A stretch of DNA of 33,732 nt, taken from positions 1 to 33,732 of the IMG/VR virus record IMGVR_UViG_3300037486_000296. One strand, given 5' to 3'. Source of the DNA: a virus. How positions within the stretch are numbered: position 1 is the first letter of the stretch; each line of letters starts with the position of its first letter. Of the stretch, positions 8,458 to 10,096 are shown piece by piece. The notes under the pieces are model-generated. The model saw only the letters and a list, made by a program, of their open reading frames with translations, did no database searches and was not told the DNA's origin. Made by a program: the position numbers and the translations under genes.

Positions 8458-9129
8458 ATGTCTGATTTTTCTGCAGCGATTGAACTAATCAGAAAGTACG
8501 AAGGGTACAACGAGAAAGCATACCCAGATCCTGGCACCGGCGGTGAGCCGTACACGATTGGTTATGGCACACAGTATTATCCGGACGGCTCTCCAGTAAG
8601 GCGTGGACATCTCTGCACAAAACGCAAAGCCCTGGAGTATCTGTACCATGAGTTGGAAGTATTGGATACCGAGCTAAAGAAGTTAAACCTGGGTCTTGAT
8701 GACTCGATGCACCAGGCCCTTCTTTCGTTCATCCATTCGGTAGGTTGGAACTCTTTCCTCTACAGCACCATCATTGATTGCTTAGAACAAGAAAATTGGT
8801 ACGGGGTCAGCGGGGAGATCACTAAGTGGATCTTTGATCAAGACCACAAGATGGTTGGGGCTTTCCTGCACCGACGCCAAGACGAGGTAAGCCTGTTCCT
8901 TGGGGAAGTCAAAGAGAATGGGTGGCGCTCCACTGAGATCTTGCTGGCCGCATTTCGGAATTACTCTGCCGCTGCCCACCAGGTGCGAGCAATCCGGCGA
9001 CTAGAAGAGGGCATAAACCCTTATACTCTGTCGGAGTTTGCCAACGAATTTCGAGTTGACGAAGACCCCTGGGGCGACAGCACGCAAAGTGCCAATGAAT
9101 TTGACCTGACTGGCATCTGTGACATTTAG
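8458..9129 (+). CDS. GH24 phage lysozyme (T4-lysozyme-like muramidase)
   Basis: 223 residues from ATG 8458; an in-frame TTG at 8434 lies in the -10/dyad region and is unlikely. The catalytic triad is visible: E15 in RKYEGY, D24 in AYPDPGTG (nine residues later, as between E11 and D20 of T4 lysozyme), and T38 in IGYGT. These enzymes hydrolyse the MurNAc-GlcNAc bond. Residues 80-160 give the helical lobe. About 60 residues beyond the usual lysozyme length form an acidic, helical C-terminus (RAIRRLEEGINPYTLSEFAN). No signal peptide, so a holin would be needed. It is far from the other endolysin at 22578. Confidence 0.85.
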   Translation: MSDFSAAIELIRKYEGYNEKAYPDPGTGGEPYTIGYGTQYYPDGSPVRRGHLCTKRKALEYLYHELEVLDTELKKLNLGLDDSMHQALLSFIHSVGWNSFLYSTIIDCLEQENWYGVSGEITKWIFDQDHKMVGAFLHRRQDEVSLFLGEVKENGWRSTEILLAAFRNYSAAAHQVRAIRRLEEGINPYTLSEFANEFRVDEDPWGDSTQSANEFDLTGICDI

Positions 9130-9165: not shown

Positions 9166-9453
9166 ATGGACAGATCCGTCGAACCCCGCGAGTTTGAGCT
9201 TCCTTTAGAGCTTCAATTTTCAATGCGCAAAGCCGAGCTTCAAGCGCAGGAGATGACATGGGAACAGCTGTATGCCGCGCTGTTAAACCTGTACCACCAA
9301 CGGTTAATGGAGTGGTATGCAGTCAAGTCTTTAATGGCCGATGAGAACATCGAAATTGATTTCGACATTCCCACCGATCTGGAATTAGCAGAACTCGCCG
9401 CCGCATGTATTTACGACGACGAGGATGATGAAGATGAGCTTCAGCCCTTCTGA
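9166..9453 (+). CDS. NblA-like phycobilisome degradation protein candidate
   Basis: 95 residues. Residues about 12-60 follow the NblA layout: ELPLELQFSMRKAELQAQEM (compare L..EQQF..R....Q...M), then TWEQLYAALLNLYHQRLMEW (S.EQ....L..LY.Q...), then an L near the helix end. NblA proteins are about 60-residue helical adaptors that mark phycobilisomes for Clp proteolysis, and some freshwater cyanophages carry nblA. This protein has an extra acidic tail of about 30 residues (IEIDFDIPTDLELAELAAA..., ending in Asp/Glu-rich residues) not typical of NblA. The match is from memory of the motif; a different helical protein is possible. It converges with DUF3310, overlapping 13 bases. Confidence 0.5.
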   Translation: MDRSVEPREFELPLELQFSMRKAELQAQEMTWEQLYAALLNLYHQRLMEWYAVKSLMADENIEIDFDIPTDLELAELAAACIYDDEDDEDELQPF

Positions 9454-9710
9454 ACTTCGTCCAGCTGAATAAGACGCTCCAGGTACCACTGTGCTTTCTT
9501 CAGTGATTCTATCCCGCCTTTATGGCGCTCACGCCAAACATACTTGGCGATGTTTCCCTTCAGATAGCCACGGTATTCTTCCGTGGTTAACTCGGCTTCA
9601 ATTGCCTCGATGCATTCAATTGCTCCGTCCACGTAATGAGACGGATGGTTCACAAGATCTTCCTTGACCTCTGGTGCAACTTCAAGGGTAGGCGTTGAGA
9701 ACCAGGGCAC
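9441..9710 (-). CDS. DUF3310 protein
   Basis: The C-terminal 70 residues match DUF3310: VNHPSHYVDGAIECIEAIEA, then YRGYLKGNIAKYVWRERHKG and GGIESLKKAQWYLERLI. It is a common small phage protein annotated as nucleotide-kinase-like or SaV-like; its function is unproven. The start is uncertain. The frame stays open to an ATG at 9941, but that part overlaps the upstream gene by 196 bases and reads like a low-complexity shadow (Gly/Asp/Thr). I chose GTG at 9710 (product about 89 residues), with AAGGA a little upstream. A fusion to the upstream gene by -1 frameshift is also possible. Confidence 0.75.
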   Translation of the reverse strand: MPWFSTPTLEVAPEVKEDLVNHPSHYVDGAIECIEAIEAELTTEEYRGYLKGNIAKYVWRERHKGGIESLKKAQWYLERLIQLDEVQKG

Positions 9711-9745
9711 TGGGCAAACGCCGTCCTTGCACTCAACTTTTTCTT

Positions 9746-10096
9746 CTACCGGAGCAAACCACGACGCTTGGCCGAGAGCATCTGCTCCTCCTGGTCCGGT
9801 CCTTCCAGTTCCAGTACTAAGCTCTTCGGTCGTGGCGAGGCTCCCATCGCCATCGCGTCCTCCATCGACGGGATGTAGCCCGTCATTCCAGGCCGTCCCC
9901 CCTCGAGGATTAGCGGATTCCTTTCTAGTCCCTGCTCGCATAGCGCAAGTCCGCGATTGTACTGATCATATAATGGCACGTCATTTTCTTCGTTGTCGAG
10001 CTCAGTACCGAATGTCGCCTGGTTCAGACAACGACACATGACCTCATCGATGATGCTTTGACCGAGACCGTCGCGGTAGTCAGCGGAGTTATGCAT
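9746..10096 (-). CDS. Unknown 116-aa protein upstream of DUF3310
   Basis: 116 residues, acidic and soluble, with no recognised domain. Segments such as SADYRDGLGQSIIDEVMCRC and DVPLYDQYNRGLALCEQG look like ordinary helical protein, and codon use favours this frame over the overlapping one. It ends 36 bases before the proposed DUF3310 start. Its ATG at 10096 is 41 bases from the divergent gene at 10138, so the short intergenic space must hold both promoters. It could be read through into DUF3310 if a frameshift occurs. Confidence 0.55.
   Translation of the reverse strand: MHNSADYRDGLGQSIIDEVMCRCLNQATFGTELDNEENDVPLYDQYNRGLALCEQGLERNPLILEGGRPGMTGYIPSMEDAMAMGASPRPKSLVLELEGPDQEEQMLSAKRRGLLR

Follow-up and report, generated by a model that had tools for sequence, protein, structure and literature searches.

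The NblA proteins of cyanobacteria bring phycobiliproteins to ClpC and are also described as loosening the antenna (PMC7966870, PMC4103541). They form a dimer packed as a four-helix bundle, and their length of about 60 residues is given as a description rather than a formal criterion (PMC7966870); a motif in the C-terminal part is said to bind phycobiliproteins, and one in the N-terminal part to bind ClpC (PMC4103541). The occurrence of nblA in cyanophages is already known. The preliminary description of the locus reported here called NblA known from some freshwater cyanophages, which understates the range, since marine cyanophages are reported to carry the gene too; when phage NblA proteins are expressed in cyanobacteria, pigment loss follows, and they are described as acting on phycobilisomes (PMC9602691). 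Among the phage-borne proteins, the one of Planktothrix phage PaV-LD (ADZ31529.1) is annotated as 'phycobilisome degradation protein nbla' and has 54 aa; other NblA-like ORFs are found in the T7-like marine cyanophages S-TIP37, S-RIP2, MedDCM-OCT-S28-C3 and S-SBP1.

For the phages grouped with Synechococcus phage S-EIV1, Nishimura et al. 2017 list hli and ptoX and no nblA (PMC5332604, Table 2). Within the literature covered that names both S-EIV1 and nblA, no ascription of the gene to this phage was found; Chenard et al. 2015 and Nadel et al. 2025 lie outside that coverage. A prophage of Synechococcus elongatus UTEX 3055 is described as most similar to S-EIV1 (PMC9239245).

An NblA-like gene in an S-EIV1-type cyanophage

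The window, i.e. the whole stretch of DNA analysed, is the IMG/VR record IMGVR_UViG_3300037486_000296, with 33,732 bases and a GC content of 48.3%. The NblA-like gene occupies positions 9166..9453 on the + strand, starts with ATG and codes for 95 aa followed by a stop codon; it is supported by the ORF list, by its match to Pfam NblA and by the conservation of its family. It lies 36 bp downstream of a phage lysozyme (endolysin) gene (8458..9129, + strand; Pfam Phage_lysozyme, E 4e-17) and overlaps by 13 bp a convergent DUF3310 gene (9441..9941, - strand; Pfam DUF3310, E 1.5e-18), while genes for an HNH endonuclease, a dCTP deaminase, a second endolysin and a primase are found elsewhere on the window. 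The ORF and the motif order first described in it are both present, and it is a real gene, more than a chance reading frame, because purifying selection is strong (core pN/pS 0.04 in the PF-ending set and 0.10 over all, 159 pairs), its position next to lysozyme is kept among relatives and a lysozyme bait recovers it.

The sole good match to the 95-aa protein in 50,697 phage records comes from Synechococcus phage S-EIV1 (E 4e-31), which was isolated on a Synechococcus strain; the five remaining phage records matching the protein have E values of 3 or more. The S-EIV1 orthologue, AHV82245.1, has 64% identity over residues 1-81 of the window protein and is annotated as 'hypothetical protein'; it differs in a longer acidic linker and in its tip, ELAPF. 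Its gene stands directly after the lysozyme gene, as in the window, and before a convergent gene, with the dCTP deaminase beyond. Megablast of window positions 1-24000 returned S-EIV1 as the single match (77.8% over 837 bases). Thus, with S-EIV1 as best match for both protein and nucleotide sequence and with an identical gene order, the window comes from an S-EIV1-type cyanophage.

Scans of viral contigs for relatives of the protein gave 390 in a first run, and at least 427 and at least 576 in wider, overlapping scans. The loci kept provided 127 distinct complete proteins, which became 171 after addition of the loci obtained with the lysozyme bait; these 171 were made distinct from the core to the stop codon, and L294 (broken frame), L097 (incomplete) and L001 (the window again) were left out; L302 ends inside the lysozyme gene. 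A lysozyme gene is found directly upstream in 123 of the 127 distinct relatives, with gaps of 25-44 bp, and the remaining four contain no more than 145 bases upstream of the gene. In one scan of genome contigs there was a single match, a phage-like contig of 29% GC (L083, PAZU01000015.1) with lysozyme, NblA-like and DUF3310 genes in this order; its filing under a Euryarchaeota MAG most likely reflects wrong binning of a contig from a cyanophage.

Loci having the NblA-like gene were the source of the lysozyme bait, and the scan kept the best 80 of 588 relatives. All but one of the 97 new loci recovered in this way have the NblA-like gene; the one without it is a stub ending within lysozyme. Twenty of the 97 (counted by eye) lie on contigs fetched earlier; the other 77 carry the gene in 76 cases, including L294, whose copy has a broken frame. 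The gene is therefore a probable core gene of S-EIV1-type cyanophages, since 76 of 77 loci on contigs not fetched earlier carry it; it is called only probable because the bait came from gene-positive loci and the scan was limited to the best 80 of 588 relatives.

Relationship to NblA and predicted structure

The NblA-like core covers residues 11-57 (9196..9336, + strand) and aligns with positions 1-47 of the 50 in the Pfam profile. With cyanobacterial NblA (PF04485; Anabaena 1ojh) the window protein shares the order L.L...QF..R ... M ... L..LY.Q...E. Its best Pfam family is NblA, with 26.3 bits against a gathering cut-off of 25 (27.2 bits in the genome search), so that the comparison with PF04485, chosen beforehand as the point where the assignment could fail, left NblA standing. 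Among 60 diverse members of the family, 48 match Pfam NblA at E <= 0.1 (best 2.6e-6); DUF4030 matches 26 and PHF12_MRG_bd 19 at the same threshold, both more weakly than NblA, and for the window protein both stay below their own cut-offs. When a profile of the 60 members was searched against the PDB, NblA 1ojh was the only credible match (E 4.7e-4, the next being 0.67). Alignment of the family profile with 11 NblA sequences by hhalign gave a score of 30.9 (prob. 78%, E 1.7e-5), compared with a mean of 11.2 and a maximum of 21.5 in 500 column shuffles and with 13.3 for one reversed NblA profile.

The distance from known NblA is apparent in the same kind of data. In Pfam, the Anabaena NblA stretch reaches 78.4 bits and the PaV-LD protein 46.8, against 26.3 for the window protein; the four T7-like marine ORFs fall in the range of the latter, with 27.8, 23.9, 31.3 and 23.0 bits, two of them below the cut-off. 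Within the family, the S-EIV1 protein (16.3 bits), L134 (17.9) and L183 (22.1) lie below the cut-off, L105 has no Pfam NblA match at E <= 0.1, and only 10 of 28 family genes on the long contigs searched pass. The Pfam NblA search of 28 contigs gave a match at E <= 0.01 in 27, and the family gene was found in 25; the matches on G010 and G011, in frames 874 and 881 aa long and limited to profile positions 19-36, are not the family gene, and an eleventh passing match, a second, T7-type nblA on G004, is excluded from the 10. At the residue level, an EQ pair precedes the conserved F (LxxEQxF) in each of the 16 NblA sequences aligned, whether known or T7-type; the window protein has ELQF at this position, and [EHQ][LM]Q[FL] is found in the eight family members aligned. 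As read from the alignments, the C-terminal half of helix 2 diverges from known NblA, and the N-terminal half fits better. The family profile scored 24.2 (prob. 27.6%) against that of T7-like NblA in hhalign, while T7-type and cyanobacterial NblA scored 44.1 with each other. PHROGs gave a best E of 0.13 for the window protein. NCBIfam NF045916 (cut-off 100 bits) did not match it either, but this model does not discriminate, since accepted NblA proteins also remain far below its cut-off (PaV-LD 21.5, Anabaena stretch 23.7).

When the Pfam, PDB-profile and hhalign results, with the shuffles, are weighed against the low-scoring members and the change at the EQ position, the gene is best regarded as truly, but distantly, homologous to NblA. 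Membership in the NblA superfamily is thus borne out by the Pfam score above cut-off, by 1ojh and by an hhalign score beyond the highest shuffle; the simpler designation as plain NblA is not, in view of the EQ pair, the end of helix 2, the small share of family genes that pass the cut-off and the low score of the S-EIV1 protein. Compared with the roughly 60 aa of cyanobacterial NblA, the window protein has 95 aa, with the EQ pair replaced, the end of helix 2 diverged and an extension of 38 residues.

The hairpin expected from the preliminary description is predicted by single-chain AlphaFold2 with the 60-member alignment, which places helices at residues 14-29, 32-59 and 71-87 with moderate confidence (pLDDT 75.5, pTM 0.48). 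In this model the first two would form the NblA-like hairpin and the third would be an addition to it. For L134, the most distant member of the alignment, the predicted layout is alike, at low confidence (pLDDT 64). Foldseek against the PDB listed 7u1s alone, by chance (E 8.6), VIA-align compared four chains, with a Z of 2.4 at best, and the best of 32 matches in BFVD had an E of 2.0, NblA being absent from all three lists; for a short helical hairpin, such searches exclude nothing.

Two further observations concern T7-type genes. In S-TIP37 (MH540083) the NblA-like ORF (L391:230-469) has no listed feature, and a DUF3310 ORF comes next (430-681, 61.5 bits); nblA-like and DUF3310 genes thus adjoin in two phage lineages, once in line, in S-TIP37, and once convergent. 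Contig G004 (125,842 bases) carries, besides the family gene, the second, T7-type nblA-like ORF mentioned above (L389:2033-2287, - strand; 84 aa, 30.6 bits), which, as read from the letters, overlaps the start of a terminase-like ORF; G004 has the look of two joined sequences, one from a T7-like cyanophage and the other from an S-EIV1-type phage.

The C-terminal extension and its tip

An acidic tail of about 30 residues had been described for the window protein. Its acidic character is confirmed, with 16 D/E and no K/R, but the extension has 38 residues (58-95), and the pure acidic run covers only residues 84-91. It consists, in order, of a conserved linker with most of a predicted third helix (residues 58-83, 9337..9414; the helix spans 71-87), the acidic run DDEDDEDE (9415..9438), whose length differs among relatives, and the tip LQPF (residues 92-95, 9439..9450), all on the + strand. 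Because E60, P69, E73 and L77 are invariant among the 60 members, the extension is not merely acidic sequence of random make-up. Compared with the core, its acidic portion evolves faster (pN/pS 0.27 in 111 pairs vs 0.10 in 159 pairs). The total length is 93-105 aa in 126 of the 127 distinct members, with one of 89. No such extension is present in PaV-LD NblA, in nine cyanobacterial plasmid NblA proteins (60-70 aa) or in the T7-type ORFs; the latter, which belong to another phage family and keep the EQ pair, end in PEEQ, PEDQ or PEDP, without acidic run and tip.

At the very end, 105 of the 171 distinct proteins have PF and 37 have PF followed by one to four residues (142 together); among the 29 without PF, eight have P and another hydrophobic residue, 19 another hydrophobic end and two neither. 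An acidic end with PF occurs in 74 of 2729 ORFs (at least 70 aa, from the loci then in hand), and all 74 belong to the NblA-like family. The codons used for P, F and stop at the tip vary.

The PF tip might simply arise from the overlap with DUF3310; this explanation was considered and rejected. Among the 127 distinct members the two genes overlap by 12-13 bp in 48 and by 4 bp, i.e. in their stop codons only, in 49; there is a gap of 0 or more in 16, and no DUF3310 gene was found in 14. PF persists where the overlap is 4 bp and also where the genes are up to 337 bp apart, as in L214, where the NblA-like protein ends in DVIPF. A pN/pS of zero at the last two codons was discarded as evidence of conservation, being circular, as only PF-ending proteins were used.

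A similar end is known from single-stranded DNA-binding proteins (SSB), whose tip DDDIPF is reported to dock on many replication proteins, with binding through the carboxylate group of the last Phe (PMC5872125). The annotated ssDNA-binding protein of S-EIV1 (KJ410740 29657-30466) ends in TDEPF. SSB was found in 22 of 30 long contigs and in four of 12 further records, the rest being mostly fragments, and PF is the end of 25 of these 26 (22/22 and 3/4; loci L251-L272 and L381-L384), with G032 as the exception. An SSB-type tip would consist of acidic residues and a C-terminal PF with free carboxylate; of these features, the PF end occurs in the window protein and in 105 of the 171 members and is absent from 66. 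The NblA-like tip resembles the SSB tip, that of the phage's own protein included, but does not always match it: in G031 the SSB ends in DSDPPF and the NblA-like protein in REFSVF. The idea that the tip follows that of the phage's own SSB is unsupported, given these different ends in G031.

Proposed function and competing explanations

We consider it moderately probable that the protein is a divergent NblA, namely a small helical-hairpin proteolysis adaptor encoded by a probable core gene of S-EIV1-type cyanophages. It would be made together with the lysis gene and would pair into a dimer, whose hairpin may bind phycobiliproteins or another host protein; the bound protein would then be brought to the host ClpC-ClpP protease, and its proteolysis would free amino acids and lower light capture in a slow infection. 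The acidic linker and tip are most likely a tether that would dock on a further protein, either a Clp unfoldase or some other partner. A comparable case is SspB, whose linker and C-terminal peptide dock on ClpX; by analogy, a tether to a Clp unfoldase is at least as likely as docking of the SSB type. The tail thus raises a question of mechanism, i.e. which partner binds the conserved tip. If the gene encodes a working NblA, a widespread cyanophage lineage tabulated without nblA (PMC5332604) carries it almost always, and the estimate of viral dismantling of light harvesting would widen; a review attributes to known viral NblA an effect on as much as 5% of light capture worldwide (PMC12892361).

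Scores near the Pfam cut-off, the weak matches to DUF4030 and PHF12_MRG_bd and the place behind a lysozyme gene would also suit a protein with some other lysis-linked or late function, whose likeness to NblA is a chance match of two short amphipathic hairpins. We hold this to be very unlikely, as the 500 shuffled profiles and the reversed one all scored far lower, the NblA-like ORFs of marine cyanophages score about equally in Pfam, and NblA matches most of the 60 members at E <= 0.1 (48, vs 26 for the next family). A role in replication, in which the tail would mimic the SSB tip and bind an SSB partner such as the phage primase, the NblA likeness being secondary, draws on DDDIPF and on TDEPF in S-EIV1, on the PF ends of 25/26 contig SSBs and 105/171 NblA-like proteins and on the confinement of acidic ends with PF to this family (74/74 ORFs among 2729). 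It is nevertheless quite improbable: the tips do not track the SSB tip, as G031 demonstrates, and PF is followed by further residues in 37 of the 171 proteins and missing in 29, though in SSB the partners bind a terminal Phe by its carboxylate (PMC5872125). Both sets of features could be joined in a two-part adaptor, with the NblA-like hairpin gripping the target and the acidic linker, with its SSB-like or Clp-docking tip, delivering it, so that destruction of the antenna would be physically coupled to the phage replisome or to a Clp unfoldase; we regard this as unlikely. We know of no adaptor that joins an NblA-like hairpin to an acidic linker with such a tip.

A lesser but real possibility is that the protein is an NblA-fold Clp adaptor that has been redirected, keeping its ClpC-side features and acting on a host substrate other than phycobilisomes. 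The phage NblA proteins tested by others are described as acting on phycobilisomes (PMC9602691), and homology to NblA is the sole functional lead, both of which speak against such a redirection. The better fit of the N-terminal, ClpC-side half compared with the C-terminal half of helix 2 is what a redirected adaptor would display, and the near-universal presence of the gene at the bait loci (96 of 97, from a scan keeping the best 80 of 588 relatives) counts in its favour. A further point comes from psbA, found in four of 30 records searched, all of them AT-rich relatives with a GC content of 0.30-0.34 (L385:1411-2499 and L386, on contigs G018 and G029; L387 and L388). The single complete psbA in the comparison has its closest match in a Prochlorococcus phage (78.9%), but Synechococcus phage S-TIM4 follows at 78.5%, and a host guessed from nucleotide identity, which tracks base composition, makes Prochlorococcus a weak suggestion for the AT-rich relatives. 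Prochlorococcus has no phycobilisomes; if it is indeed their host, the target of the NblA-like protein there must therefore be a different one.
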